A stretch of DNA of 42,346 nt. Source: a virus. The notes under the pieces are model-generated. The model ran no database searches, was not told the DNA's origin, and worked only from the letters and a program-made list of their open reading frames with translations. Position 1 is the first letter of the stretch. Every line of letters begins with the position of its first letter. This document shows positions 8,232-28,566 of the stretch, piece by piece. The stretch is taken from IMG/VR virus record IMGVR_UViG_3300032309_000420, positions 1 to 42,346 of that record; one strand, written 5' to 3'. The translations under genes were made by a program, and so were the position numbers.

Positions 8232-8260
8232 CTTTACTTTAAGAAAGTTTTAGAAATTTT

Positions 8261-8279
8261 TGCAAAATATTTTTTTGCA
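8261..8279 (+). terminator. AT-rich hairpin after the SprT-like gene
   Basis: TGCAAAA (8261-8267) and TTTTGCA (8273-8279) form a perfect 7-bp stem with a 5-base loop, followed by a T-rich stretch to about 8294. Position 30 bp after the stop suggests a weak intrinsic terminator or attenuator. The stem is A/T-dominated, so efficiency is doubtful. Confidence 0.4.
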
Positions 8280-8307
8280 TGGCCTTTTATTTTTGATAGG
8301 GGGTGGG

Positions 8308-8383
8308 TTTCTATATAGAAAACAAGGACTTACCAGGCGAGAGAGAAGTATTACTGAGAGGAGAGACCCAATAAGCCCTTGTT
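8308..8383 (+). promoter_or_regulatory. Palindrome and long leader hairpin
   Basis: Two structures lie between the SprT-like gene and the next ORF. TTTCTATATAGAAA (8308-8321) is a perfect 14-bp palindrome, operator-like. AACAAGGACTTA (8321-8332) can pair with TAAGCCCTTGTT (8372-8383) with one mismatch. The 39-base loop holds the GGAG (8360-8363), and the TTG start at 8379 sits in the stem. If transcribed, the fold could gate translation of the small ORF at 8379. The function is inference; the complementarity is read directly. Confidence 0.4.
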
Positions 8384-8588
8384 AGCTCTTATTATATACA
8401 AAAGTTTTGAATTTTTGCCAGCTATTTGTGCAAGTCTTAGTGTAGGTTTGTTTTTTGGGACTCCAAAACCACGTTGGGCTATGCCCTATGGGGTGGGTTC
8501 GACATTTGCCGAATTGACAAATCCGAGCCATGTGTCATTATTTGGTTACGGGGTCACAACGATAGATGACATTATTAGGAGTTTATGA
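8379..8588 (+). CDS. Possible small protein, TTG start
   Basis: A 69-codon ORF with TTG at 8379; an SD-like GGAGAG lies about 14 bp upstream. The first 25 residues are hydrophobic (ALIIYK, then FLPAICASLSVGLFFG), resembling a membrane segment; the rest is polar and ends TIDDIIRSL. Its TGA overlaps the ATG of the next gene (8585), which favours coupling. One variant of the TTCGAC palindrome (8498-8513) is in frame, coding STFAE, as in three other genes here. Against it: non-ATG start and imperfect SD. If the real start is ATG 8478, the protein is much shorter. Function unknown. Confidence 0.4.
   Translation: MLALIIYKSFEFLPAICASLSVGLFFGTPKPRWAMPYGVGSTFAELTNPSHVSLFGYGVTTIDDIIRSL
8498..8513 (+). 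repeat. TTCGAC palindrome, degenerate copy (centre ATTT)
   Basis: TTCGAC-ATTT-GCCGAA: one arm has a T-to-C change. It is in frame inside the ORF at 8379 and directly abuts a TTGACA box at 8514. Confidence 0.6.
8514..8542 (+). promoter_or_regulatory. Candidate promoter upstream of the 221-residue gene
   Basis: A perfect TTGACA (8514-8519) is followed after 17 bp by ATTATT, a poor -10 box. The 3' end of a degenerate TTCGAC palindrome touches the -35 box. The predicted start would be 35-40 bp upstream of ATG 8585. The weak -10 makes this tentative. Confidence 0.3.
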
Positions 8589-9250
8589 TGACTACATCAA
8601 AATCAGTAGTAAATGTTTTAACAAGTAAGTTTGACGCTAACGTGGTTCGTAATATTGGCTCTAAAGCAAGTGAGGCTCTACTCGGTATCGATACCATTAA
8701 GGGTTTGGCTTTATCACTTGGCGAGATGTTAATAGAACCAAGCCAATATAAGACGCCGAAAGCGTTACCTGTGGTTATGTATCAACCCTTGGCAGAAGGC
8801 ATTGCCTTTCAATATTCATATAAAAAAGGTGATGTGGAAAAGTATTTCACCAAGCAAGGCGAGAATTGGCTCATTTCGACTTTTGTCGAATTCGAAAAGT
8901 TTAAGGGCGAAAAGCATCATGCGAGTGTGGCTTGGCTTATGGCTACTGACCTTGGCAAGTATGAAAAGGCGAACCCAGCTAAAGCTCAAATTACGGCTAT
9001 CATGAAACCCGTTAAAACGGCTTTAATTAAAAATAGTGTAAATAAAACAATTACACGAATGTTAGCTGTCTTTAAGCCCGAAACCGAACCAAAAGCACCT
9101 GTTTTGGATTTGGCGAAAGTAGCTAAAAACGCAATCGATAAAGCCGAACTTATCGACAATGAAAACCCTGTCTTACTTACCAAGCTATTCGAAAAATTAA
9201 TAGCCGAGTATAACTTAAGACGTGATAATGGTAAGATGGCTACCGAATAA
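8585..9250 (+). CDS. Unknown 221-residue early protein
   Basis: I do not recognise this protein. It is soluble-looking and Lys-rich, with a compact segment around residues 60-110 (LPVVMYQPLAEGIAFQYSY, then the palindrome-encoded STFVE at 98-102) and a helical Lys/Ala-rich C-terminal half. There is no membrane segment or classical enzyme motif. The start at 8585 has AGGAG 5-9 bp upstream and overlaps the previous stop. It is followed by a strong terminator (9273-9306), so it ends the first plus-strand unit. Because the candidate origin lies directly downstream, a replication or regulatory role is possible, but only from position. Confidence 0.75.
   Translation: MMTTSKSVVNVLTSKFDANVVRNIGSKASEALLGIDTIKGLALSLGEMLIEPSQYKTPKALPVVMYQPLAEGIAFQYSYKKGDVEKYFTKQGENWLISTFVEFEKFKGEKHHASVAWLMATDLGKYEKANPAKAQITAIMKPVKTALIKNSVNKTITRMLAVFKPETEPKAPVLDLAKVAKNAIDKAELIDNENPVLLTKLFEKLIAEYNLRRDNGKMATE
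8875..8890 (+). repeat. TTCGAC palindrome (centre TTTT), inside a gene
   Basis: TTCGAC-TTTT-GTCGAA with perfect arms, in frame as STFVE at residues 98-102 of the 221-residue protein. Confidence 0.75.
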
Positions 9251-9272
9251 AGCCACCACGTAATTATCTCAT

Positions 9273-9306
9273 AAGCCACGTTATAACCTAGCGTGGCTTT
9301 TTTTTT
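9273..9306 (+). terminator. Strong intrinsic terminator
   Basis: AAGCCACG (9273-9280) and CGTGGCTT (9292-9299) make a perfect 8-bp, GC-containing stem with an 11-base loop, running straight into a T tract ending at 9306. It closes the transcription unit ending with the 221-residue gene and separates it from the origin block. Confidence 0.85.
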
Positions 9307-9320
9307 GCCCTGTGAAAACG

Positions 9321-9377
9321 TGGTTTCAACTTTTTTTGAAACCAGTTATAGAAACCAGTTCCTTATAGAGACCAGTT
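9321..9377 (+). repeat. Hairpin and GAAACCAGTT direct repeats
   Basis: TGGTTTCAA (9321-9329) pairs with TTGAAACCA (9336-9344). The second arm belongs to a series of near-identical decamers: GAAACCAGTT at 9338 and 9351, and GAGACCAGTT at 9368. A fourth copy, GAAACCAGTTCT, occurs far away at 18679, just before the endolysin SD. Purpose unknown. Confidence 0.5.
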
Positions 9378-9706
9378 CCCAAAAGTCTAAGCATAAGCCT
9401 AGGTTCATGTTTTGTATTGCGTGGTTCATAAATCGGTTCATGTTTTAAAAGTATAAGTCTTTGATTATTAAGGAAGGTTCATAAGTTCATGCTTTCGTAG
9501 CATAGGGGGCGAAGGTGGAAGTTTTAGACGTCGTTTGACTGAGAACATGCCATGCAATATTCAAAAGTCAAAACCCCCCTCACTATTCGAAAATGGCATG
9601 AACCATGAACTTGCCTATTTTTTAATCAATAATAATAATATAATATAATATATAATATATAATAAATACAATAACTTACGCACTTTCTAATTTTTTCAAA
9701 AAGCTC

Positions 9707-9753
9707 GGTTCATGGTTCAATATGTAAAGTAGAGGGTTTTTGAACCATGAACC
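9707..9753. repeat. 14-bp perfect inverted repeat in the origin block
   Basis: GGTTCATGGTTCAA (9707-9720) and TTGAACCATGAACC (9740-9753) are exact reverse complements separated by 19 bp. They could extrude a cruciform or bind a dimeric initiator; each arm is two overlapping iteron units. Confidence 0.8.
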
Positions 9754-9784
9754 ACGTTCCACTCCATTTTTACCACGTTATCAC

Positions 9785-9800
9785 TTCGACAAAAGTCGAA
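9785..9800 (+). repeat. TTCGAC palindrome (centre AAAA), in the origin block
   Basis: TTCGAC-AAAA-GTCGAA with perfect arms. It is the only intergenic copy without an ATAT centre and the only one not placed before an SD; it lies 74 bp upstream of the 9874 promoter. Confidence 0.75.
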
Positions 9801-9873
9801 TTATGTCACCCAAAACCACGTTCTAATTCCATGAACCAAGAACTATCACGTAAGACTATTTTATACGAGGGTA

Positions 9874-9902
9874 TTGACTTTATTGTAAAGTAGTGGTATA
9901 AT
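9874..9902 (+). promoter_or_regulatory. Strong sigma70-type early promoter
   Basis: TTGACT (9874-9879), 17-bp spacer, TATAAT (9897-9902). The spacer ends in GTGG, and AGTAT follows the -10 box, close to what is seen at the 12097 promoter. The leader of about 115 bases contains one ATAT palindrome (9976) before the SD of the 10027 gene. It probably drives the small-gene cluster from 10027 onward. Confidence 0.85.
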
Positions 9903-9975
9903 AGTATTTGAATGGGGCAGTCTAGCTATATGTTTGGTTATGTATTTAGTGTGTAGCTTGTATTACCTTGTTCGG

Positions 9976-9991
9976 TTCGACATATGTCGAA
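9976..9991 (+). repeat. TTCGAC palindrome (centre ATAT)
   Basis: Perfect TTCGACATATGTCGAA in the leader between the 9874 promoter and the SD of the 10027 gene. Confidence 0.85.
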
Positions 9992-10026
9992 TTAAACTAA
10001 TAGCAGGCATACAAAGGAGAAAAGAA

Positions 10027-10209
10027 ATGGCAATTCAAAACCATAGCAATAATAAAAAGCTTAAAGACTATATCTTTAATTACAACAGAGAGGTCATGTT
10101 AAGTCAGCACGTAACAATTCACAAGTCCCGACTCAGACGTCTAATCATTACCGAAGTTATAGCGTGGGGTATTGCGGGGTTTATCTTAATTGTTTCAGTT
10201 CTTCGTTAA
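10027..10209 (+). CDS. Small membrane protein, unknown function
   Basis: A 60-residue protein with a polar, basic N-terminal part (LKDYIFNYNREVM, then HKSRLRRL) and one C-terminal transmembrane segment (about residues 38-58, IITEVIAWGIAGFILIVSVL). ATG 10027 is chosen because AAAGGAG lies 7 bp upstream; a longer in-frame start at 9934 has no SD and would run through the palindrome at 9976. Positive charge before the helix predicts a cytoplasmic N-terminus. It is the first gene after the 9874 promoter, hence probably expressed very early. Function unknown. Confidence 0.7.
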   Translation: MAIQNHSNNKKLKDYIFNYNREVMLSQHVTIHKSRLRRLIITEVIAWGIAGFILIVSVLR

Positions 10210-10225
10210 TTCGACATATGTCGAA
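10210..10225 (+). repeat. TTCGAC palindrome (centre ATAT)
   Basis: It begins on the base after the TAA of the 10027 gene, and its last A joins the AGGAG SD of the 10237 gene. Confidence 0.85.
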
Positions 10226-10236
10226 AGGAGTCAAAC

Positions 10237-10446
10237 ATGGAGTATAAGAACCTATGTGTTAAATGTGGTGACCACGTATTACATGGTCGGTGGAGTTTAG
10301 GCTACACAACCTGTTTAAGGTGTGGTGAAGATATCGCAAGACAGGTTAAGCACACAATCGCACCCATGCACAAGAGTAATTACATGGTCATCACCAACCA
10401 CGCTGACTTAAAAGGACTCAATAACAAAGGGGGACTCGTGAAATGA
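10237..10446 (+). CDS. Small four-cysteine zinc-finger phage protein
   Basis: A 69-residue protein with two zinc-knuckle pairs, CVKC (residues 7-10) and CLRC (26-29), then a conserved-looking ARQVKHTIAPMHKSNYMVIT segment. I recall this protein as a frequent, uncharacterised small gene in T7-like and other podophages. Zinc binding by the four cysteines is likely, and a nucleic-acid or protein-interaction role is plausible but unproven. AGGAG follows directly on the palindrome at 10210, and the stop overlaps the next start by 4 bp. Confidence 0.75.
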   Translation: MEYKNLCVKCGDHVLHGRWSLGYTTCLRCGEDIARQVKHTIAPMHKSNYMVITNHADLKGLNNKGGLVK

Positions 10447-10778
10447 AAGTAAGTAACAAAAACGCTAGGGATTGCGTAAACGCTTTAGCAGAGTTTGAAG
10501 GCAGTAATACGTTTAGCAAATGGTATAGTTTTGACGAGTATGCAAGGAAACTATATGTAGTGTATAGTTATGGACGACATTTTCCTATGTATGTGTATGA
10601 TGACGAACAGGATAAATGGATAGGCAATAAGGATAAGTTTTCACAAAGCACGTCAAGGCATCAATCATTACTCAGACCAAGTGACGGAGTAGAGATGTGG
10701 TTAAATACCGAAGGCTTGCGTGAGTTAATAAACAATCATGGCTTAGTGGGTTATACAATTCACAAGGCACAAACCTAA
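10443..10778 (+). CDS. Conserved phage protein, unknown function
   Basis: A 111-residue protein with many aromatic residues, including YVVYSYGRHFPMYVYDDEQD near the middle and a TSRHQSLLRP segment. This pattern recurs in small phage proteins that I recall but cannot assign. It looks like a compact alpha/beta protein with no membrane part. The start overlaps the zinc-finger gene (ATGA), and the stop is followed at once by the palindrome at 10779. No catalytic residues can be named. Confidence 0.7.
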   Translation: MKVSNKNARDCVNALAEFEGSNTFSKWYSFDEYARKLYVVYSYGRHFPMYVYDDEQDKWIGNKDKFSQSTSRHQSLLRPSDGVEMWLNTEGLRELINNHGLVGYTIHKAQT

Positions 10779-10794
10779 TTCGACATATGTCGAA
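10779..10794 (+). repeat. TTCGAC palindrome (centre ATAT)
   Basis: It begins on the base after the TAA stop (10776-10778); the SD (AAAGGAG) of the 10818 gene follows 11 bp later. Confidence 0.85.
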
Positions 10795-10817
10795 CTTAAA
10801 CTTAAAGGAGAAACAAA

Positions 10818-11105
10818 ATGCAAACAAGAGAATATACGGCAGTAGTCAAGATTAAAGTTGATGAAAGCATGATAAGAGAAATTAAAAACTGGGACGACTG
10901 GATTAGCGTTGAAGGTCATCTTGCTACCCTTCTTACAGAAAATCTAAAAGACAAAGGTCTTATGTTAAAGGCAGAAGTATTTCCTATCCAAGCATATGAC
11001 GAGTTATGTCAAACATCTTTGCGTTTCATGGAAAACAATGCACTCGCTGACATCGAGGACGAAATCTTAAATAAGTCTTGTATTGGGGGTAATTGTGAAG
11101 ATTAG
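10818..11105 (+). CDS. Small acidic protein, unknown function
   Basis: A 95-residue acidic protein, probably alpha/beta: a strand (YTAVVKIKV), an amphipathic helix with IKNWDDWISVEGHLATLL, a second strand (LMLKAEVFPI) and a C-terminal acidic helix ending in two cysteines (CIGGNC). The SD AAAGGAG is well placed. The stop overlaps the next gene. I do not recognise a family; the N-terminal strand-helix-strand resembles small ferredoxin-like folds, without proof. Confidence 0.65.
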   Translation: MQTREYTAVVKIKVDESMIREIKNWDDWISVEGHLATLLTENLKDKGLMLKAEVFPIQAYDELCQTSLRFMENNALADIEDEILNKSCIGGNCED

Positions 11106-11304
11106 AAACTTGAGAGCAAGATGTTTAGAACCTAGTAGCGATATCCCATATGTATTACATGAAGTGGAGTATCAAGTAGAGAGTCCGTTAAAAGATAATC
11201 TATGGTTAAACACAACCCATACCATGTATGCAACCGACCCGATAGATGCTATTAACAAAGCTAAAAGTTATTTAAAAAAGGAAGAAAATAATGAAATCCA
11301 ATAA
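11095..11304 (+). CDS. Small protein, GTG start, unknown function
   Basis: A 69-residue protein if GTG 11095 is used; an in-frame TTG at 11083 would add four residues. The GGGGGT before the GTG is only a rough SD, so coupling to the overlapping upstream gene is likely. The sequence has a strand-rich first half (YVLHEVEYQVES) and a helical Lys/Glu tail (DAINKAKSYLKKEE). It overlaps the next start by 14 bp. No function is apparent. Confidence 0.6.
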   Translation: MKIRNLRARCLEPSSDIPYVLHEVEYQVESPLKDNLWLNTTHTMYATDPIDAINKAKSYLKKEENNEIQ

Positions 11305-11602
11305 ACATAAAGAAGTCGTAGAAAACATTGTGCGTTTCTTACAAAAGGAATTAAAGCATGATGCCGAAGAAGTAAACTCGGTGACTGGTATCTCGCATGA
11401 CGACATTGATGGCATAACTTTAGGTCGTTATGAATTGGCACGTGACACGTTAAGACTTATCCGCAGTCTGACGGGTGATACACAATCTAACCACGTCAAT
11501 CCCGTTTCGACAAATGTCGAACCGCAACTATACTTTGAAGAACAAGCAATACTCGATGCACAAGCGTATGTCGAGAAACTCACCACGAAAGGTAGGTTAT
11601 AA
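11291..11602 (+). CDS. Small helical protein with an in-frame palindrome
   Basis: A 103-residue, mostly helical, charged protein. Residues 73-77 (STNVE) are coded by a copy of the TTCGAC repeat (11506-11521), and this short linker-like part (about 65-80) separates two helical regions. SD-like AAAAGGAAG precedes ATG 11291. The next gene starts directly after its TAA. No motif gives a function. Confidence 0.65.
   Translation: MKSNKHKEVVENIVRFLQKELKHDAEEVNSVTGISHDDIDGITLGRYELARDTLRLIRSLTGDTQSNHVNPVSTNVEPQLYFEEQAILDAQAYVEKLTTKGRL
11506..11521 (+). repeat. TTCGAC palindrome (centre AAAT), inside a gene
   Basis: TTCGAC-AAAT-GTCGAA, in frame as STNVE (residues 73-77) of the 11291 gene; identical to the copy at 14861. 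Confidence 0.75.
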
Positions 11603-12055
11603 ATGGGCTATCAAAGTCAAGTAGGTTATGCCATATCGTTTAACAAAGAAATACAATGGACTGACCATGCCACAGATGAGGATAAGAAACTCAAAGGCGA
11701 GGACATATTTAATACATTCATAACTGAAGCCAAGTCTAACGAGGATACTAAACTTTGTTTCGATGAAGATGAAAGTCCGTTGGAAATTGACCATGAAAAC
11801 TTGTTACTTAAATTCTATGTCGATGATTGGAAATGGTATGAGGATTATGCAGGAGTCGGTTGCCATGAAGCTTTGCTTAAACTAGCAGAGGAATACATTG
11901 ACTCACAGGAAAACAATCAAGCAATAAAACATTTAACCATAAGCTATGGATTTGTGCGTATTGGTGAAGAAACAGAAGATATTGAAACAAGATATGGTGG
12001 TGATGATGGCTATAGTTTGCTATATCCCACAAGAGGTATTGAGTTTGAAGTTTAA
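11603..12055 (+). CDS. Conserved phage protein (MGYQSQV family), unknown function
   Basis: A 150-residue acidic protein starting MGYQSQVGYAI, an N-terminus I recall from a widespread group of small phage proteins. It has strands at each end (LTISYGFVRIGEE, then RYGGDDGYSLLYP) and a central DDWKWYEDYAGVGCHEALL stretch. The start lies directly after the previous TAA, behind AAAGGTAGG. It closes the first small-gene cluster; a new promoter follows at 12097. Function unknown. Confidence 0.7.
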   Translation: MGYQSQVGYAISFNKEIQWTDHATDEDKKLKGEDIFNTFITEAKSNEDTKLCFDEDESPLEIDHENLLLKFYVDDWKWYEDYAGVGCHEALLKLAEEYIDSQENNQAIKHLTISYGFVRIGEETEDIETRYGGDDGYSLLYPTRGIEFEV

Positions 12056-12096
12056 TTTTTATATGGTGTATCAGTTAAGATACTCATAGGCGAGGC

Positions 12097-12125
12097 TTGA
12101 CTTTTGTTATAATGTATGGTATAAT
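12097..12125 (+). promoter_or_regulatory. Strong sigma70-type promoter before the MoxR/VWA cluster
   Basis: TTGACT (12097-12102), 17-bp spacer, TATAAT (12120-12125), followed by AGTAT and soon AATGGG. It closely resembles the promoter at 9874. A palindrome copy (12172) sits in the leader before the SD of the 12209 gene. Confidence 0.85.
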
Positions 12126-12171
12126 AGTATATTAAACAATGGGAAAGGTCTATTCAGTAGTAAAACCACGT

Positions 12172-12187
12172 TTCGACATATGTCGAA
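12172..12187 (+). repeat. TTCGAC palindrome (centre ATAT)
   Basis: Perfect copy in the leader of the 12097 promoter, 15 bp before the GAGGAG of the 12209 gene. Confidence 0.85.
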
Positions 12188-12208
12188 CTAAACAAAGAGG
12201 AGAGCAAC

Positions 12209-13123
12209 ATGGAATATCAAATGCAACAACCCAACCACATCATATCGTTGGCAACGTCAGCAGTATTAGTATCAGTTGATGTCAATGTATGGTCAGCAAC
12301 AAAGCAAGACAGAACTATATCAGACGAAGTTACTCATGCTAAAAAAGCAGACTCAAGTGCAGGCAGATTTGTGAAGAACCTTTTAGCTGATGACTTATTT
12401 CACAAACGTGTAAGCAATTACAGACAGACAATTTATAATTGGTTAAAGCGTTCAACGTATCGTTGGAACAATAGCCAAGACTTACTTCCTGTTATCAATC
12501 TAGAAAAGTTTAAGAATGAGTTTAATGACCACGAACTAACGTTTAATAAATATCTAGATGACTTCATAAACAATTACCAATCTATCGTAAGTAACATGGC
12601 TTTCAAAGCAGGTGATATGTTTAACAAAGATGATTACCCCGATGCTATGGAAGTTAGAAACAAATTCGGTATCAAGTTGTATGTCGCAGAAGTGCCGAGC
12701 CATGACTGGCGATGTAACATATCAAATGATATCGCTAGTGATTTAAAAGACCAATACACCAAACAAGCAGAGGAGATTATCAATCATGTCGTATCGGAAC
12801 AAGTGGACAGGCTTACTGATGTCATGGAAAGTATCAGCCATTGTTGTGGAGTGTCGGAAACTACCGATGCAAACACAGGCGAAGTTAAGACGAAGAAACG
12901 CAAAATATATGATACCACAATCGAAAAAGCTAAAGAGTTATGTGCAACATTTAAAGCATTTAAACCAGTAAACAATGAGGTAACCAATCGCTTGACTGAC
13001 GCAGTAACCAAGCTAGAGTATGCCTTGAATGGTGTAGATATAGATACAATCAGAGATAGCGATGCAGTCAGAGAAAAGGTTAAGAACAACGTTGATGACA
13101 TCTTATCTAAATTTAAACTTTAA
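12209..13123 (+). CDS. Conserved phage protein linked to the MoxR/VWA pair
   Basis: A 304-residue soluble protein. The N-terminus (AVLVSVDVNVWSATKQDR) and middle (NMAFKAGDMFNKDDYPDAME, then VRNKFGIKLYVAEVPSHDWR) match a protein I recall from many phages, usually encoded just before an AAA+ ATPase and a VWA protein. The C-terminal half is helical. It has a two-cysteine pair at SHCCGV but no clear zinc site. The SD GAGGAG is strong. The neighbourhood suggests it is the substrate adaptor or third member of the MoxR/VWA module; no biochemical function is known to me. Confidence 0.75.
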   Translation: MEYQMQQPNHIISLATSAVLVSVDVNVWSATKQDRTISDEVTHAKKADSSAGRFVKNLLADDLFHKRVSNYRQTIYNWLKRSTYRWNNSQDLLPVINLEKFKNEFNDHELTFNKYLDDFINNYQSIVSNMAFKAGDMFNKDDYPDAMEVRNKFGIKLYVAEVPSHDWRCNISNDIASDLKDQYTKQAEEIINHVVSEQVDRLTDVMESISHCCGVSETTDANTGEVKTKKRKIYDTTIEKAKELCATFKAFKPVNNEVTNRLTDAVTKLEYALNGVDIDTIRDSDAVREKVKNNVDDILSKFKL

Positions 13124-13139
13124 TTCGACATATGTCGAA
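13124..13139 (+). repeat. TTCGAC palindrome (centre ATAT)
   Basis: It begins on the base after the TAA of the 12209 gene, and its 3' arm runs into the AGGAG of the 13151 gene. Confidence 0.85.
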
Positions 13140-13150
13140 AGGAGAGCAGT

Positions 13151-13339
13151 ATGGAATGGGTTACTTTTGCAGTATGGTTTGGGTGTGGATACTTTTGTAA
13201 GTCCACCAAAGATTATATCTATGAAAGACAAATGAGAATGATATTTGAGAGAATGTCAGACGCAGAGAAAAAAGTAATAGCAACAAAATTTATTAATGAC
13301 AAACTAAAGAGAGAGGATAGTAATCATGGCAACAATTAA
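13151..13339 (+). CDS. Small membrane-anchored protein in the MoxR/VWA operon
   Basis: A 62-residue protein: a hydrophobic N-terminal segment (residues about 2-17, VTFAVWFGCGYFC) likely spans or touches the membrane, followed by a basic and charged helix (YERQMRMIFERMSDAEKK). AGGAG lies directly before the start, and the ORF overlaps the ATPase gene by 14 bp, so it is translated with it. It may tether something at the membrane; nothing more can be said from sequence. Confidence 0.6.
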   Translation: MEWVTFAVWFGCGYFCKSTKDYIYERQMRMIFERMSDAEKKVIATKFINDKLKREDSNHGNN

Positions 13340-14399
13340 TAACATAGCAAGTGTAACAATCGATGAGTTAAGAAAGTTAATTCCTGCGATAGGTAAAAGT
13401 TTAACACCTGTCATTCAATCAGAACCAGGTTGTGGTAAGACATCTTTACTTAACATGATTAGGGAAGATTTAGGTGATACATATGATTACATATATGTTG
13501 ATTGCCCTGTCAAAGATATGTCGGACATAGCGATGACTATTCCTAACCACGCTAGTAAATCGTTAGAAACATATGTCGGTAGTTTGTTTAAACTAGATAA
13601 CCCTAAGCCTAAGGTTATCTTACTTGATGAGTTTATGAAGTCGCCTAAGTTATTACAAGTTATCTTTACTAGGCTCATGCTAGAGAGATGTGTAGGTGAC
13701 ATACCCTTACCCGAAGGTAGCATAGTGTTTGCAACATCTAACAATGCAAGCGATGGTGTAGGCGATAGTATGTTGGCTCATGCAGGTAATCGTGTATGTA
13801 TATTGAAAATGCAGAAACCCGATGTAGATACATGGCTTAAATGGGCGAATGATAATGCAATCAATCCGTTGATTAGGGCATGGGTTTATATGTTTCCACG
13901 TTGCTTGAATAGTTATACCGATGGTGGTCAAGAGGATAACCCATATATCTTTCAACCAAGTAAAACTAATCTATCGTTCTGTTCACCACGTTCACTTGCC
14001 AAGTCATCGGTCATCGTTGATATGCAACATATACTAGGTGATAATGCAACCATGTGTGCATTGGCAGGGACTATCGGTGCTAGTGCGTCAGCCGATATGA
14101 GTGCGTTCTTACGACTAGAGAAAAAGCTACCTAAGTTTAAGGACATACTAGAGAAACCAACAACTATAGATATTCCCGATGACACGGCTGCCAAGCTTAT
14201 GCTTATGTTTCAAGCAGTAGATAATCTAACCACGCAAGATGAATTGTCATCGTTCATGCAGTTTGTCAAGCGTATCGAGAGTAGCGAACTTCAAGCAGTA
14301 TTCTTTACCATGATGGTGCGTAGTAAGAATGGTGTCAAACTTGCACGTTCAAATGTAGAGATTGCTAAATGGGCTACTGATAACCACGAATTATTTTAA
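13326..14399 (+). CDS. MoxR-type AAA+ ATPase
   Basis: A 357-residue ATPase with Walker A EPGCGKTS (residues 33-40), Walker B VILLDE (97-102) and a sensor-1-like FATSNNASDGVGDSM segment near residue 135. The C-terminal half holds the helical lid. MoxR-family ATPases act as chaperones that remodel or insert cofactors into partner proteins, usually with a VWA protein encoded next door; here that partner is the 14412 gene. All nucleotide-binding residues look intact. In phages such pairs are common but their target is unknown. The start is behind GAGAGGATAG within the end of the preceding small gene. Confidence 0.85.
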   Translation: MATINNIASVTIDELRKLIPAIGKSLTPVIQSEPGCGKTSLLNMIREDLGDTYDYIYVDCPVKDMSDIAMTIPNHASKSLETYVGSLFKLDNPKPKVILLDEFMKSPKLLQVIFTRLMLERCVGDIPLPEGSIVFATSNNASDGVGDSMLAHAGNRVCILKMQKPDVDTWLKWANDNAINPLIRAWVYMFPRCLNSYTDGGQEDNPYIFQPSKTNLSFCSPRSLAKSSVIVDMQHILGDNATMCALAGTIGASASADMSAFLRLEKKLPKFKDILEKPTTIDIPDDTAAKLMLMFQAVDNLTTQDELSSFMQFVKRIESSELQAVFFTMMVRSKNGVKLARSNVEIAKWATDNHELF

Positions 14400-14411
14400 T
14401 AGGAGATAGAT

Positions 14412-15593
14412 ATGGCAACGAGTCAAGAAACAAGACTTAAGAAAGCCCACGTTGCACTACTCAAGCACCCCGAAACAGCGTTATATTCGGGGGTTATACT
14501 TATGGGTAAGAGTAGTGTCGATGATGAGAAGTTTACGGCATACACCGATGGCTTTAACAAACGATATAGTCGAGAGTTTATATCCAAGTTAAGTGATGAG
14601 GAGTTACGAGGTATTGTTATGCACGAGAACTTACACGTCGCATTGAAACACATGCAACGATTTACTAATGAGTTTAAGGCTAACCCACACTTAACCAATG
14701 TGTCAGCAGATTATGTTGTGAATGATATCATCAACAACTTTACGGATAAGAATATATGTAAGTTACCCGAAGGTGCGTTGTATGATGCCAAGTTTCATAA
14801 TTGGTCTGTGCGTGAAGTGTATGAACATCTTAAGAAAGAAAGCAAAAAGAATGATGATGGTTCGACAAATGTCGAATCGGGTATTGATAAACTTAAACCA
14901 TTAGATGAGCATGACTTTGAAAATGCAAAACAGATGACACCCGAACAGATTGCTGACCAAGCAGGCAAGATTGACAGAGCATTACGAGAAGGTGGCATAC
15001 TTGCAGGTCGTATGGGTGCTAAGATACCACGTCAGATATCGGACTTACTTGAGCCTAAAGTTAATTGGCGAGAGGTCTTACGTGATTTTGTAACATCGGC
15101 ATCACGAGGTTCAGAGGAATATACATGGCGAAGGTTTAACAAACGACTCATGGCGAATGATATTTATATGCCAAGCCTTGAAAACGAAACCGTTGGCGAA
15201 CTCATAATAGCCATTGATACATCGGGTTCAATCGGTGGTGCAGAACTTACAGAGTTTGCATCAGAACTGGCTTCGATTTGTGAATCAGTTAGTCCCGCAC
15301 GTGTGCGTGTTTTGTGGTGGGATACAGAGGTTCATGCTATGCAGACATTCGATGACGGATACAATAACATCGCTAGTTTGCTAAAGCCAGAAGGTGGGGG
15401 TGGAACAATGGTTTCGTGTGTAGCAGAATATATCAACGAGCATAAACTAAAAGCTGAGGGTGTCATTGTGTTTACCGATGGTTACCTTGAGAGTGATATC
15501 AAGTGGGATATATCTACACCAACTCTATGGCTTATCACTCAAGCTAAAGACTTTCAAGCACCAAGTGGTAAGGTAATCAAAAAAGATGATTAG
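14412..15593 (+). CDS. VWA domain protein with N-terminal metallopeptidase-like domain (DUF2201)
   Basis: A 393-residue partner of the MoxR ATPase. The N-terminal domain has HENLH (residues 71-75) and DYVVND about 25 residues later, as in the putative metallopeptidase domain DUF2201_N. The C-terminal VWA domain carries the MIDAS motif DTSGS (269-273), GGGGTM (328-333) and FTDG (354-357), all intact for metal binding. A linker around 140-165 is charged and contains the palindrome-encoded STNVE (151-155). In RavA/ViaA- and MoxR/VWA-type systems the VWA protein presents targets to the ATPase. Here it is 12 bp downstream with its own AGGAG. The target in the infected cell is unknown. Confidence 0.85.
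   Translation: MATSQETRLKKAHVALLKHPETALYSGVILMGKSSVDDEKFTAYTDGFNKRYSREFISKLSDEELRGIVMHENLHVALKHMQRFTNEFKANPHLTNVSADYVVNDIINNFTDKNICKLPEGALYDAKFHNWSVREVYEHLKKESKKNDDGSTNVESGIDKLKPLDEHDFENAKQMTPEQIADQAGKIDRALREGGILAGRMGAKIPRQISDLLEPKVNWREVLRDFVTSASRGSEEYTWRRFNKRLMANDIYMPSLENETVGELIIAIDTSGSIGGAELTEFASELASICESVSPARVRVLWWDTEVHAMQTFDDGYNNIASLLKPEGGGGTMVSCVAEYINEHKLKAEGVIVFTDGYLESDIKWDISTPTLWLITQAKDFQAPSGKVIKKDD
14861..14876 (+). repeat. TTCGAC palindrome (centre AAAT), inside a gene
   Basis: TTCGAC-AAAT-GTCGAA, in frame as STNVE (residues 151-155) of the VWA protein, in its interdomain linker. Confidence 0.75.
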
Positions 15594-15759
15594 ACACGAA
15601 ATATTATATGAAATAAATAAAATTATTAGTCGCTACCCTGTTAATAAAAATAGTAGATTATGTAGGCTATGGATAAAATCACATAGGTTAAATGATAGGA
15701 AATTAAATAATCTATTAAAAGGATATAGATTACATAAAATGATTAACTCAGTAAAATAA
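15586..15759 (+). CDS. Possible 57-residue basic protein
   Basis: An ORF from ATG 15586 overlaps the end of the VWA gene by 8 bp and reads to TAA 15757-15759. The product is basic, rich in Lys, Arg, Asn, Ile and Leu, and predicted helical (MIRHEILYEINKI, then LNNLLKGYRLHKMI). The SD is weak (AAGG 13 bp upstream), so translation would rely on coupling. The overlap and the lack of any alternative content in this gap support it. Function unknown; a small nucleic-acid-binding protein is possible. Confidence 0.45.
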   Translation: MIRHEILYEINKIISRYPVNKNSRLCRLWIKSHRLNDRKLNNLLKGYRLHKMINSVK

Positions 15760-15950
15760 GTCAATGGGGAACTGTGCGACTAGTGGTCGCTTTGAGGTGA
15801 GAGGTAATAAACACTATTAAAATATATTTTGAACACACTTGCGTGACTAAAGATATTGCCGAAAGGTTAGTAATTAGTATGGCTCTTAAAAGTTTAAAGT
15901 AGCTTGAATATCGAAACCTAAGCTACACCCCACCAATTAAGGAGAACTAG
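15760..15950 (+). promoter_or_regulatory. Structured leader region without a gene
   Basis: About 190 bp with no convincing ORF. Near its start is CAATGGGG, resembling the sequence downstream of the 9874 and 12097 promoters; a TAAAAT (15752-15757) could be a -10 box but no -35 box is evident. Two hairpins are readable: GCGAC/GTCGC (15776-15780 with 15786-15790) and GTAGCTT/AAGCTAC (15899-15905 with 15920-15926). The second ends about 13 bp before AAGGAG, so it could affect translation of the 15951 gene. A structured 5' leader or small RNA is possible. Confidence 0.35.
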
Positions 15951-16247
15951 ATGTCAACGATTTATAATGAAGACGATGATATAGATTTTGATATTGACGA
16001 TATCGACCATGAACGTATTGAAGAAAAGATTAAACAGGCGAGTAGTGCTATGTTTAAACAACTTATGGAGATGGCTATGATAGAGGAATTCATAGATGAT
16101 GAGTTAATGAAAAAGAGGATATGGTGTTTAAGAAAACAACCTTACACTATCACTCACTATGATATTGACCATTACATGAACAAAGCAACGGTAGAAGAAA
16201 TAGATGCAAGAGTAATAGAACTTACTATTCAATTAGCAGAGAAATAA
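15951..16247 (+). CDS. Small acidic protein, unknown function
   Basis: A 98-residue protein with a strikingly acidic N-terminus (residues 6-20, mostly Asp/Glu with Ile) followed by helices (HERIEEKIKQASSAMFKQLM). AAGGAG lies 7 bp before ATG 15951. Highly acidic small early proteins of phages often mimic DNA or bind host proteins, but there is no specific evidence here. It ends one base before the next ATG. Confidence 0.65.
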   Translation: MSTIYNEDDDIDFDIDDIDHERIEEKIKQASSAMFKQLMEMAMIEEFIDDELMKKRIWCLRKQPYTITHYDIDHYMNKATVEEIDARVIELTIQLAEK

Positions 16248-16248
16248 T

Positions 16249-16560
16249 ATGCCATTCAGACACATGACTAAATCACAAATGCTTGCATGCGGATATTCAA
16301 TGGGTAAGGCAGACTCACAGAACACGAGAGTAGAGGTATATAGAATGTCTAAAACAATAGAAGAAGTTAAAGAACGAAATGAAATTTTGCAAGAACTAAA
16401 TAAGTTAGCATGGCAATTAAGAATTAGGAGTAAAGAGTCACAACGTATTAATTGGCATTATGCTAGACGAAACAAAGAAACTAATGCTCAGTTAAAGAAA
16501 CTATTAGCTGACATGAAAATAGAGTATGTATATCAACAAGCAGGAGGGGTAGATGAGTAA
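16249..16560 (+). CDS. Small basic helical protein, unknown function
   Basis: A 103-residue protein. The first 20 residues (FRHMTKSQMLACGYSMGKAD) resemble a short conserved phage N-terminal motif; residues 30-95 form a Lys/Arg/Glu-rich helix likely to be a coiled coil. The SD is weak (AGAGAAATA), so coupling to the preceding gene one base upstream is likely. A later in-frame ATG at 16345 is possible but has no SD. Function not recognised. Confidence 0.6.
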   Translation: MPFRHMTKSQMLACGYSMGKADSQNTRVEVYRMSKTIEEVKERNEILQELNKLAWQLRIRSKESQRINWHYARRNKETNAQLKKLLADMKIEYVYQQAGGVDE

Positions 16561-16717
16561 AGAGAAACAGAAAGAAATTATAGTAAGTAATATAAGAGTA
16601 AAAGGATATGTCAAACATGCTAACGGTAAAAAAACATTGTTTGATTTTAATAAATATGACTTTGAACCTAAAGCATTGACAGGCATCTTTGAAGAGTTAG
16701 GAAATAAATATAATTAA
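16553..16717 (+). CDS. 54-residue basic protein
   Basis: An ORF with a strong SD (AGGAGGGG, 16542-16549) and ATG at 16553, overlapping the previous gene by 8 bp. The product begins MSKEKQKEIIVSNIRVKGYV and ends in an acidic helix (GIFEELGNKYN). It looks like a small beta-then-alpha protein. The SD and overlap make it likely real despite its length. Function unknown. The palindrome at 16721 starts 4 bases after its stop. Confidence 0.7.
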   Translation: MSKEKQKEIIVSNIRVKGYVKHANGKKTLFDFNKYDFEPKALTGIFEELGNKYN

Positions 16718-16720
16718 CAA

Positions 16721-16736
16721 TTCGACATATGTCGAA
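16721..16736 (+). repeat. TTCGAC palindrome (centre ATAT)
   Basis: Perfect copy in the gap between the 16553 and 16756 genes, 8 bp before GAGGAG. Confidence 0.85.
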
Positions 16737-16755
16737 ATAACTAGAGGAGAGTATC

Positions 16756-17781
16756 ATGGCAGGAAGTATTAACTACAATCAATTAATGTGGACATATAAA
16801 AATTTACCACCATATAAAAACACAAACGAATATCCCTATTCAAACAGACATCATAGATATAAATATTTTATACCTGTCGAAGTCAATGGTAAGATTGAAT
16901 TCAACGTGCATTACTATTGGGGAAGTGAACAGACAAATTATAGTATGGCAGAGTTTGAACAATTTGCATACACATTAAATAAACGTCAACGTGATAAGTT
17001 TTATTACAATGAAAGTCCAGAGGGTATACCGTATATGACAAGATATATTTCTAAACATAAACCATTTGGTATTGTAAGAGATGATAATACCGTTGAGATA
17101 TTGTGTGCATATATGGGACAAGGTGAACGTATGATTATAAGTGAACAACTAGGAGTAAGTGCATACTTTATGCAAGAAGTTTCATCTGGTGGTGTTATCT
17201 TTACTGATAGATATGCACAACATCGTAGAAGTTTAAAACGACCTGCCTTCGTAGGTATGCGATTCAACGTAGATACTGGAGAATTACATGAGTCATCTAG
17301 ATATAAGATAGATGTAAAAGTAGTGGACAGAAAAAAATCTAATCAACTTATGAAAGAACATGTAGATAAGTTATCTATGATTAAAATGTTTTATAATTCA
17401 ACTGATGCAGAAACATTAATTTCAGACATAAAAGAAGCTATCAAAACCCATGCGCCCGATGCTTTAAATGAAACCCCTTCATCTTATTTTGAAACTGCAA
17501 GACGGTTATGGGATATCGATGCTATTGCATCATCTTACTTTTATATGTTAGCATACTATATTGGTAATGCGTATTGGGCTGTAAAGTATGGTTCAAGTAT
17601 GAGTGAGCCTACAAAAATGTATAAACAATTATTACCAAAAATGAAGAAAGATTTAAAAGGTAATGCCGATGTATTTACTAGACGAACGTATTGGGATTTT
17701 GAAAAAATCTATCCATCAGCTAGATGGGGTTTAGAGCTTACCGATATGCAAGGTAATCATCTACAACAGATACATGGCTAA
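16756..17781 (+). CDS. Unknown 341-residue protein
   Basis: A 341-residue, aromatic-rich soluble protein. The N-terminal part is Tyr/Asn/Lys-rich (YKNLPPYKNTNEYPYSNR), the middle has predicted strands, and residues 255-290 include SSYFYMLAYYIGNAYWAVKY, a hydrophobic helix that may be buried rather than membrane-spanning. No nucleotide-binding or catalytic signature is visible and I do not recognise a family. GAGGAG is well placed before ATG 16756, and the stop abuts the palindrome at 17782. It is one of the longest orphan genes in the early region. Confidence 0.75.
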   Translation: MAGSINYNQLMWTYKNLPPYKNTNEYPYSNRHHRYKYFIPVEVNGKIEFNVHYYWGSEQTNYSMAEFEQFAYTLNKRQRDKFYYNESPEGIPYMTRYISKHKPFGIVRDDNTVEILCAYMGQGERMIISEQLGVSAYFMQEVSSGGVIFTDRYAQHRRSLKRPAFVGMRFNVDTGELHESSRYKIDVKVVDRKKSNQLMKEHVDKLSMIKMFYNSTDAETLISDIKEAIKTHAPDALNETPSSYFETARRLWDIDAIASSYFYMLAYYIGNAYWAVKYGSSMSEPTKMYKQLLPKMKKDLKGNADVFTRRTYWDFEKIYPSARWGLELTDMQGNHLQQIHG

Positions 17782-17797
17782 TTCGACATATGTCGAA
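17782..17797 (+). repeat. TTCGAC palindrome (centre ATAT), last copy
   Basis: It begins on the base after the TAA of the 16756 gene. The ATG inside it (17790) is in frame with the next gene but has no SD, so it is not taken as the start. Confidence 0.85.
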
Positions 17798-17813
17798 TCA
17801 ACATAGGAGAAGT

Positions 17814-18708: not shown

Positions 18709-19095
18709 ATGCTAGAACAAGCATTGGTGTGTCTTGCCACAACGATTTACATGGAGTCTGCATCAGAACCACGTCAAGGCCAAATTGCCGTCGGTTATGT
18801 ATTGTTTAGACGAGCAGACTTTGATTACAAAAATGTATGCCGTGAAATGAAACGACCTGCACAATTTAGTTGGTATGGTTATGTCAAACCCCCACAGGTA
18901 ATTCGACAAGAGTATAAAGACCTAGCATATAAAGTGTTACATCGTCTAGAGGTAGACTATTCATATGGCGCAACACATTTTCACGATACCACTATCACAA
19001 AACCAAAATCATGGTATAATCTAAAACCAGTAGTCAAATGGTCAAAACTAATATTTTATAAACAAGGAGAGGGTAAATATGCAAGAAACCCTTAA
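18709..19095 (+). CDS. SleB-like cell wall hydrolase (putative endolysin)
   Basis: A 128-residue single-domain protein of the Hydrolase_2/SleB family: ATTIYMESASEPRQGQIAVG with the catalytic Glu16, QFSW (52-55) and GATHFH (87-92). These enzymes are lytic transglycosylases/hydrolases of peptidoglycan. No signal peptide is visible, so release would need a holin, or it may be an arrest-type enzyme acting otherwise. The SD (AAAAGGAGG) is very strong. The location among replication genes rather than virion genes is unusual for a lysis gene. It overlaps the 19079 gene by 17 bp. Confidence 0.8.
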   Translation: MLEQALVCLATTIYMESASEPRQGQIAVGYVLFRRADFDYKNVCREMKRPAQFSWYGYVKPPQVIRQEYKDLAYKVLHRLEVDYSYGATHFHDTTITKPKSWYNLKPVVKWSKLIFYKQGEGKYARNP

Positions 19096-19706: not shown

Positions 19707-19891
19707 TTTCGTTTAGTCATGCAGTTGTAGATGAAGATGGTGAGATTGTCCGTAAGTATAGATGGTCAGCCAAAGAAGCTAAGTGGCATAAAGAACAAGG
19801 TAAGAATGTAATTAAATTAGAAGTAGAAAAGCAATCGAGTATTAGTCCGTTTCAAGAATGTTTAAACTTAGTAGGAGAATGTTTTATATGA
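19703..19891 (+). CDS. 62-residue protein, GTG start
   Basis: It begins at GTG 19703, overlapping the previous stop, and ends at TGA 19889-19891, overlapping the next ATG. The sequence (VDEDGEIVRKYRWSAKEAKW, then EQGKNVIKLE) looks like a short strand-turn-helix protein. The chain of 4-bp overlaps supports real translation. No function is recognised. Confidence 0.6.
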   Translation: MISFSHAVVDEDGEIVRKYRWSAKEAKWHKEQGKNVIKLEVEKQSSISPFQECLNLVGECFI

Positions 19892-27338: not shown

Positions 27339-28244
27339 ATGAGTAGTGAGTTAATTAGTATATTACAAAACAGTCCTCAAATTATCCAAACTGGGTTAGA
27401 CGATGATACTAAAGCAGTTGCGGGTAATACGAACAGTACAAAACGTATATCAATTAAAGGCGGAGTATTCCGTAAGTATGTAGCAGGTAAAGAAGTAAGT
27501 GCGATTGAAGATCGTCACATGAATATTATTATAGTGAAGATGGCTCATAATGCATCTCGTATGCTATATCCAAAAGCTTGGAAAGAGAATGAAAAAATTA
27601 GTCCTGTTTGTTGGTCTAGTGATTCTCGTACTCCAGACCCTGAAGTAAAAACACCACAATCATCATCATGCGAAACATGCCAATTCAGTGCTAAAAACTC
27701 TGGATATAACGGCGCAGGTACGGCATGTCGTCTATCATGGAGAATGGCTGTTGTATTACCTAATGACCCAGCAGGCGATATTATGCAGTTAGTATTACCA
27801 GCTAAGTCATGTTTTGGTAAAGAAGAAAGTGGTAAATGGCCTTTTAGACCTTACATCCAAATGCTTGCAAATAATAATGTAAGTGCTGGTCGTGTAGTAA
27901 CTAAAATGCAATTTGATACTAAATCAGAATCACCTAAAGTATTATTCTCTCCATCAGCTGCGGTTGATGTGAATGATATGGAAGTATTACAAAGACAGGC
28001 TAAATCAATAGCTGCGGAACAAGCAGTTAAATTAACTGTATATCAAGGTGGTAGTAATGAAGAAGGTGAAGAAGAATTTGCACCAGCTCAAGCTCCAGTA
28101 GCACAAGTACAAGAGCCAGTAGTCCAAGCTCAACCTACTTCAGATGTAGCTATAAACGAACCTGTACTAAGAGATAATGCTCAACCACAAGCTCCTAAAG
28201 CGGCTAATGTAAGTGACATTATTAATAAGTGGGCAAAGAAATAA
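27339..28244 (+). CDS. CxxC protein, candidate ssDNA-binding protein
   Basis: A 301-residue protein from ATG 27339 (AGTGGAG 6 bp upstream). The core has a GGVFRKYVAGKEVSA strand pair, a cysteine cluster SSCETCQFSAKNSGYNGAGT followed by ACR (three Cys), and a beta-rich region to about residue 220. The C-terminal 75 residues are a Pro/Gln/Ala/Glu-rich disordered linker ending in a helix (SDIINKWAKK). A folded domain plus a flexible tail next to the primase-helicase fits a phage ssDNA-binding protein. Against it, the tail tip is basic rather than acidic. Confidence 0.45.
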   Translation: MSSELISILQNSPQIIQTGLDDDTKAVAGNTNSTKRISIKGGVFRKYVAGKEVSAIEDRHMNIIIVKMAHNASRMLYPKAWKENEKISPVCWSSDSRTPDPEVKTPQSSSCETCQFSAKNSGYNGAGTACRLSWRMAVVLPNDPAGDIMQLVLPAKSCFGKEESGKWPFRPYIQMLANNNVSAGRVVTKMQFDTKSESPKVLFSPSAAVDVNDMEVLQRQAKSIAAEQAVKLTVYQGGSNEEGEEEFAPAQAPVAQVQEPVVQAQPTSDVAINEPVLRDNAQPQAPKAANVSDIINKWAKK

Positions 28245-28245
28245 T

Positions 28246-28566
28246 ATGCCTAAATCCTATAGTGAAAAGTTTGTACTAAATTTACAAAAAAATACTTCTG
28301 ATCATATAGGTATCAAGATGGCGAAGCTTTGTGTAAAAGCAAGGCTTCCTATTAAAGATGTGGCTAATGTATTTAAAGTATCACGTATGGCTATCCATAG
28401 TTGGTTTAGGGGTAGTGAGATAAAAGAAGAAAATGTTATTAAGATTCAAAGGTTTAATAACATAATTGAGACAGAGTTATTAGAGGGTCATTTACCAAAG
28501 ATAACTTCTATCTTAGCCAAGCATTATTTAGAAGAAATTGTTACACCTGAGATAATAGAGAAGTAG
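28246..28566 (+). CDS. Helix-turn-helix regulator
   Basis: A 106-residue protein (ATG 28246, 1 base after the previous stop). Residues about 25-57 (MAKLCVKARLPIKDVANVFK, then VSRMAIHSWFRG) make a clear helix-turn-helix with a typical recognition helix. The rest is helical. It probably regulates phage genes; the TTCGAC palindromes or the inverted repeat at 24512 are possible targets, without evidence of which. It is followed by a gap with a TATAAT sequence (28567). Confidence 0.7.
   Translation: MPKSYSEKFVLNLQKNTSDHIGIKMAKLCVKARLPIKDVANVFKVSRMAIHSWFRGSEIKEENVIKIQRFNNIIETELLEGHLPKITSILAKHYLEEIVTPEIIEK

Follow-up and report, generated by a model that had tools for sequence, protein, structure and literature searches.

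A dispersed, lineage-specific palindrome family in the early region of an uncultured bacterial virus and the hypervariable protein that changes with it, a putative repressor

The control of early genes in an uncultured bacterial virus is considered here through a family of twelve palindromes, TTCGAC-N4-GTCGAA, in IMG/VR record IMGVR_UViG_3300032309_000420, of unstated completeness, whose 42,346 bases were analysed as a whole and are called the window below. At the left edge of the block that holds these sites lies a gene (8585-9250, + strand) for a hypervariable protein of 221 amino acids, and for convenience we call its family gREP. Our comparisons with related viruses, which are comparisons of sequence, support well the conclusion that gREP and the palindrome arms co-evolve. 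The reading that we favour, with a probability of about 0.6, is that the palindromes are operators of a dispersed regulon read by gREP, which would regulate its own gene and block early transcription in a stoperator-like manner. This reading starts from twelve symmetric sites with a fixed spacing and a free centre in a single block, and from relatives that keep this layout with arms of their own, differing together with gREP beyond the genome background. A kept layout and arms that change with this one protein point to a fast-evolving, self-specific genetic switch.

A pattern scan found 11 exact copies, starting at 8875, 9785, 9976, 10210, 10779, 11506, 12172, 13124, 14861, 16721 and 17782, and one copy with a single mismatch at 8498, all within 8498-17797. 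The original prediction, made by reading the letters, had all twelve coordinates right, and it was also correct that the arms are conserved, with one substitution in one copy (GCCGAA at 8498), and that the centre varies (ATAT in seven copies, AAAT in two, TTTT, AAAA, and ATTT in the degenerate copy). The confinement to the first half of the early region held at zero or one mismatch, at which no place in the window was found outside 8498-17797; one place with two mismatches lies beyond, at 18902. Chance frequency across the genome, which would have spoken against a functional family, was not seen, since 100 shuffles gave a mean of 0.00 exact copies. With up to three mismatches allowed there were 24 places against 9.35 expected (largest shuffle 16), and the pattern read backwards had no occurrence in the window. 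The exact core in its commonest form is rare in IMG/VR (9 stretches of 8 contigs), and a megablast search of window positions 1-24000 against the phage collection returned no match. We rejected a host-encoded site, as the exact 16-mer occurred in 50 stretches of the genome collection, at one place each, which is chance level (about 60 estimated for 257 Gb).

Nine of the twelve copies are wholly non-coding, though only 17.2% of 8232-17813 is non-coding by the gene list (binomial P 1.8e-5). In four copies the palindrome follows a stop codon at 0 nucleotides (nt), shortly before a Shine-Dalgarno (SD) sequence: 10210-10225, with the next start codon 11 nt on, 10779-10794, 13124-13139, after the stop codon of a gene for a DUF3150 homologue, and 17782-17797. 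The copy at 16721-16736 lies 3 nt past a stop codon, and that at 9785-9800 is also non-coding. The next start codon stands 11-23 nt past the site in six of the nine non-coding copies, and all five gaps of 27-39 nt hold one site apiece, whereas the 191-nt gap at 15760-15950 holds none. The three in-gene copies, within gREP (8875-8890), within the open reading frame (ORF) at 11291-11602 (11506-11521) and within the VWA gene (14861-14876), share a common reading frame, each giving S-T-[F/N]-V-E.

Relatives were gathered through neighbouring genes, with homologues of the DUF3150 gene of the window (12209-13123, + strand, 304 amino acids; phage MinM2 has a 26% identical homologue, which bears the annotation DUF3150) as the anchor. 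Distant relatives are without TTCGAC, and many have repeated palindromes of another sort, each lineage with its own kind. Perfect inverted-repeat arms of at least 6 stand upstream of the DUF3150 gene in 45 of 68 distinct relatives, against 5.6 expected, and 10 of the 68 have no arms of at least 5 there. The arms include TTCACG, TTCCAC, CCCACG, CGTGGG, AATCGGG, ACCCTAGA and GCGTGTC, and further CCTGACA, GTCTACA, AAGCGT, TTCCGTC, ATCTGTC and others; they are alike among the copies of one genome and change as a whole from one lineage to another. The scan of related genomes that had been proposed for co-variation of the arms gave the opposite of drift without compensation: the arms change in a compensated way between lineages. 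In whole records the copies lie largely at about -5 to +8 kb around the DUF3150 gene, that is, in one early block of about 13 kb, with a stray exact copy outside it in G003, for example. When one mismatch was counted, seven of ten further records had 5-12 copies in the block and 0-2 outside; the other three have no clear family, among them G070, which is cut close to the block.

The candidate reader stands out in a pair of records, G050 and G034, that are alike at most genes: two adjacent early ORFs are only about 28% identical between them (28-30% to G034 and G056). Such ORFs, one or two per record and 196-260 amino acids long, recur at this place, which in the window is 8585-9250. A hidden Markov model (HMM) recognises gREP in 30 of 58 records; the 14 that are without the DUF3150 gene have none. 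The 44 records with that gene comprise the 30 with an HMM-recognised gREP, G001 with a close homologue of the window's protein, G014, G015 and G048 with an ORF assigned by position, and ten with less than 4 kb of upstream sequence. Of the 14 without it, ten have no palindrome repeated at least four times and four have a scattered one or one clumped elsewhere.

Half-site distance follows gREP distance. In 23 of 30 genomes, with near duplicates dropped and seven background genes controlled, a partial Mantel test gave r 0.75 (p 0.0003; floor 1/3001). Leaving out the clade of the window and two genomes whose ORF was assigned by position (G000, G001, G014 and G048) gave r 0.80 (n=20), and reducing the CCAC group to one member gave r 0.41 (p 0.004, n=13). 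Single pairs tell the same: G034 and G050 are 94% identical in the background and only 29% in gREP, and their palindromes differ, belonging to the TTCCGTC and CCCAG classes respectively, whereas G034 and G056, with the same 94% background, are 95% identical in gREP and have the identical palindrome. At the site within the AAA gene, the letters of G034 are replaced in G050 by substitution while the flanks hardly change, and the arms of the G050 copy contain one mismatch; elsewhere in this alignment, some sites have no counterpart in the other record. In a second set of 32 loci, the palindrome family exceeded every shuffle in 29, and in 29 the arms matched those that go with the nearest gREP, allowing a difference at one of the 2-5 positions compared. 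As all of these loci are CCAC-type and at least one nearly duplicates a training record, this set speaks for association more than for specificity. In comparisons across classes, L089 (CCTGAC) comes closest to G014 of the same class (42%) and L020 (TTCCAC) to G074, likewise of its own class (97%), while the closest relatives of L071-L073 (CCTAGA) belong to another class (47-49%).

Such correlations might also arise if gREP merely hitchhiked with a linked element that sets the specificity, for instance the non-coding stretch at 9251-10027, or a small gene or RNA that escaped notice. The low-identity block between G050 and G034, at about -5600 to -3200, does span more than one gene; gREP, however, is the only recurring ORF of at least 110 amino acids there, bar an ORF of 114-115 amino acids in some records, which we take to be SprT-like, and the correlation is graded across 23 genomes. 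We hold hitchhiking to be quite improbable.

A protein of a more familiar kind had been the first candidate. The original prediction named a helix-turn-helix (HTH) protein at 28246 and a winged HTH protein at 19888 as possible readers, and neither fared well. The latter (ORF at 19858) has a match in just 22 of 120 loci compared. The former, a Cro/CI-like protein (28213-28566), was found in 26 of 26 relatives searched; its model has a predicted local distance difference test (pLDDT) score of 88.1, and the best Foldseek rows are mostly Cro/CI/XRE repressors, all at E > 0.4. Its identities in the same versus different palindrome bins (65/44, 66/45 and 81/44) were striking and seemed decisive, but the contrast was gone with more genomes and the partial Mantel test (r 0.17, p 0.12; then, in the test that included gREP, 0.11, p 0.23); it was confounded. 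Near-identical HTH proteins coexist with different palindromes, being 95% identical between G034 and G050, and G024 and G054 have the recognition helix of the CCACG class. Thirteen records carry the HTH protein and neither the DUF3150 gene nor gREP; nine of them have no palindrome repeated four times, and the remaining four have only scattered or clumped ones. By the test for a Cro/CI-type repressor and operator, HTH divergence does not follow operator divergence, and we consider it very improbable that this protein reads the palindromes. In G014 and G015, the HTH match lies within a frame of 402 codons with one TAG; the HTH may be fused to the gene upstream across the TAG, or the open frame may be due to chance.

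The palindromes might be read as DNA or as RNA. The original prediction had left both an RNA hairpin and a dimeric DNA-binding protein open, and of these the protein is favoured on the sequence evidence, whereas the hairpin is less supported by the set-wise change of arms, the independence of the outer halves and the count of wobble pairs. In relatives, an outer half-motif of about TTAAnTARYR extends beyond the arms, with T at -14 in 81% (left) and 79% (right) of 59 ORF-covered sites. The outer positions were compared in 127 sites of 20 genomes, of even-centred classes and chosen for perfect inner arms, so that the inner arms are constant by choice and uninformative for covariation. Several columns from -10 to -22 are conserved while the two halves vary independently (z <= 0.7), with position -9, at the arm edge, as an exception (z 3.1); independent outer halves fit protein contacts rather than a stem. 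Among one-mismatch copies in the block (n=65) there are 22 G-T wobbles, 19 A-C mismatches and 24 transversions (wobble versus A-C, p 0.76), and outside the block (n=20) 2, 3 and 15, respectively. The higher G-T share in the block (22/65 versus 2/20, p 0.048), which could be taken in favour of pairing, arises because both kinds of transition are commoner there.

An action in RNA would make the palindromes small stop-to-SD hairpins, bound by gREP or a ribonuclease and controlling translation or stability. It draws on sites that sit just ahead of SD sequences (in 29 genomes, 119 of 190 sites have an SD-like string and a start within 60 nt), on a possible hairpin of about -5.8 kcal/mol for most window copies and on the G-T share just given. 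Within a genome, however, the letters of the stem are constant and not those of the loop, the outer halves show no pairing covariation, G-T and A-C mismatches are about as frequent in the block, 65 of 190 sites are ORF-covered, sites ahead of -35 boxes lie upstream of the transcript to be regulated, and Rfam gave no match at gathering score in the window. We judge a role in RNA improbable.

Three promoter-like sequences on the + strand, each a consensus match only, accompany the window family: P1 (TTGACA-16-CATTAT, 8514-8541) ahead of gREP, P2 (TTGACT-17-TATAAT, 9874-9902) and P3 (TTGACT-17-TATAAT, 12097-12125), P2 and P3 being the two best promoter-like matches of the window region. The mismatched palindrome (8498-8513) abuts the -35 of P1; the copy at 9976-9991, which precedes an SD sequence, is centred 81 nt past the -10 of P2; and that at 12172-12187, which precedes the DUF3150 gene in a position kept in relatives, is centred 54 nt past the -10 of P3. 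Within the 190 nt upstream, 26 of 39 gREP genes have a site whose arms show no more than one mismatch, against 5.7 expected. The best -35 starts 8-12 bp past the centre of such upstream sites in 10 of 25, and a promoter score of at least 9.5 follows them in 32% of 25, compared with 1% of random places. Among exact sites, a promoter with a score of at least 10 lies 40-125 nt upstream of 25 of 168 (2.3% at random), and for 15 of these 25, some of which come from near-duplicate records, the distance from the end of the -10 to the site centre is 52-55 nt.

We propose, from these positions, that a gREP dimer, or a complex containing gREP, would read both half-sites on DNA. On the promoter of its own gene, whose -35 often begins 8-12 bp past the site centre, bound gREP would adjust gREP expression. 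Near early promoters, with the site centre often 52-55 nt past the -10, and at the other intergenic and intragenic sites, it would form a roadblock and silence early transcription. Binding and dimerisation of gREP at the palindromes, and silencing as the sign of its regulation, are what we infer from sequence patterns. More speculatively, immunity may drive the change of gREP and sites, with selection for new pairs, since phages arriving with the same sites would come under the silencing of a resident gREP as well.

The same positions admit the reverse sign, and we regard it as unlikely, while giving it real weight, that gREP binds the sites and activates, or acts as a processivity factor with Q-like loading. 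The site just upstream of the gREP -35 is in an activator-like position, comparable to the activator positions of lambda CI and CRP. The recurrent spacings (8-12 bp in 10 of 25 and 52-55 nt in 15 of 25) suggest more than a random roadblock, and inverted repeats seen by eye between several early promoters and the site would fit as well. However, some 5-15 sites along an operon, including sites in genes, are unneeded for loading, and the VIA-align row for lambda Q reached only Z 3.3. As observations in their own right, also by eye, several records have an inverted repeat between promoter and palindrome, such as GAGTCGGGG...CGACTC in G054, with differing letters, and many early promoters of relatives (G054, G018, G071) resemble TTGACTNATANGTCAAGTTNTGNTATACT; inside it lies an inverted repeat, TTGACT..AGTCAA, which is not lineage-specific and could be read by the conserved HTH protein.

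Dispersed palindromes are also known in replication-origin, partition and DNA-organising roles, and these, or selfish mobile palindromes, might be invoked here. Such roles would leave aside that the sites associate with promoters, stop codons and start codons and that the window copies are confined to the early block, and they have little probability in our view. Mobile palindromes in particular were rejected on the aligned in-gene site of G034 and G050, which was substituted and not inserted; for other in-gene copies, the comparison of flanks was visual only.

Several findings weigh against the operator reading, and we set them together here. The window family is largely without the outer flank motif of its relatives, promoter-like matches in the window region are not above shuffles (40 versus 44.5), the spacing at P2 falls outside 52-55 nt, and 13 of 39 gREP genes have no upstream site at the threshold used. 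The window gREP is only a remote homologue of the main family (HMM E 1.2e-4; hhalign E 1.8e-6, probability 90, 148 columns), and two gREP-bearing records, G057 and G068, have no clear palindrome family. In the co-evolution test, the next-best gene, VWA, which itself holds sites in several genomes, has a partial r of 0.36 (p 0.003); in the second set, three of 32 loci fail; and G034 and G054 share a site similarity of 0.82 with gREP only 54% identical, a partial likeness which indicates that the mapping from gREP to site is graded. Finally, gREP is without a DNA-binding signature in Pfam, PHROGs and NCBIfam or by fold, and the structure modelled is that of a relative, L222 (record G012), rather than of the window protein.

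The model of L222 (pLDDT 92.7; predicted template modelling score, pTM, 0.70) consists of helices, three short strands and one long helix. Foldseek gave best E values of 1.0 in PDB and 0.78 in BFVD, and the best VIA-align hit, a ribosomal chain (Z 5.3, root mean square deviation 3.6, 75 aligned), is within the uninformative range of that tool. Sequence libraries returned stray rows (PHROGs best 0.014, Pfam 0.0016, PDB sequences 0.027), NCBIfam gave one row at 2.9e-6 (CGLAU_01105 family) for 1 of 38 gREP members, and a tblastn search with one family member against 50,697 phage records had no match. A new fold does not follow from the absence of a fold match to this predicted structure. We nevertheless put forward, tentatively and at somewhat less than even odds, that gREP is a DNA-binding protein whose fold is new and which recognises long dyad sites, their inner part being specific to a lineage and their outer part (T at -14, A at -17) shared, and that it serves as a hypervariable homoimmunity switch in phages without a detected integrase. 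On this reading, an exchange of gREP would oblige about ten sites to change their letters, some of them within conserved genes. The tyrosine integrase PF00589 was found in none of 27 records, which may be fragments and in which serine integrases and parABS were not searched for; lysogeny is not evident for want of a tyrosine integrase in these records, though it may occur. If gREP binds DNA, it would represent a family of DNA-binding proteins that has no convincing counterpart in Pfam, PHROGs, NCBIfam and the fold libraries searched.

Some features of the region deserve mention beside these subjects. Window positions 12209-15593 hold a trio conserved in these phages, namely the DUF3150 homologue, an ATPase (phrog_1297) and a phrog_1314 protein; PHROGs names phrog_1314 an HNH endonuclease, and the MinM2 counterpart is annotated VWA-like, while that of the ATPase is annotated MoxR. 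The labels SprT, AAA/MoxR and VWA for genes of the block are presumptive on our part. Synechococcus phage MinM2 and Planktothrix phages Pag-Yong1 and Pra-JY27 are each 65,014 bases long and match identically, which suggests one phage under three names. Between gREP and 10027, about 777 nt (9251-10027) are without a called gene and contain repeated GGTTCATG-like strings and a terminator-like hairpin (9273-9299). The string ACCACGT lies mostly on the + strand, in 18 of 21 cases in 7801-31600 and in 7 of 8 elsewhere, with 0.7 expected on the + strand in the early part; the bias holds elsewhere although the large ORFs there read from the - strand, and the string is perhaps a strand-polar motif, Chi- or KOPS-like.

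Finally, the arrangement can be set against known systems. We found no description of a gREP/palindrome system in the open-licence PMC literature, and the original statement that no described phage regulon has this site holds to that extent; its nearest described case, the 17-bp palindrome TGTTCGG-N3-CCGAACA of the Cluster O mycobacteriophage Corndog, is nonetheless in print, with 34 copies and a function stated to be unknown (PMC4351075). The likeness extends to many copies with invariant arms and a free AT-rich centre, intergenic and in-gene placement and the lack of an integrase, in our records of one of the tyrosine kind; Corndog sites, however, run through the genome, whereas those of the window lie only in 8498-17797, and no cognate protein is named in the accessible part of that report, whereas here the lineage-varying sites co-vary with an identified protein, gREP. 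The Cluster K SAS/ESAS repeats also stand just ahead of the starts of non-structural genes, and the ESAS half-sites vary between phages, but SAS are asymmetric, 13 bp long and 3-7 bp from the start codon, with no protein partner known as far as that source goes (PMC3203893). The 21-22-bp repeats of T1 and TLS are mostly intergenic, occur in lytic phages, have a function described as unknown and were likened by their authors to stoperators; they are asymmetric and oriented, and in TLS they lie about 76 bases upstream of start codons (PMC11447400, PMC4319613). The stoperators of L5 and Cluster A share with our sites the many non-promoter positions, a lineage-specific sequence and a correlation of repressor and site distances (PMC6550527, PMC9283540). 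Many copies outside promoters across the early operon, a defining feature of stoperators, are found in the window too, and gREP and its sites show a stoperator-type co-divergence, with the repressor role of gREP being putative. In contrast to the 16-bp symmetric palindromes of the window, stoperators are 13-bp, asymmetric and oriented (PMC6550527); the Cluster A repressor has an HTH domain, whereas gREP has no recognised fold; and Cluster A phages are temperate, whereas no tyrosine integrase was found in our 27 records. What gREP may add to these systems is a testable partner for dispersed phage palindromes whose function is called unknown in print for Corndog, together with a set of more than ten naturally occurring protein/site pairs in which the joint change of specificity in a regulator and all of its sites can be studied. 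The closest system in form is the Corndog palindrome, and the closest in logic the stoperators of Cluster A.

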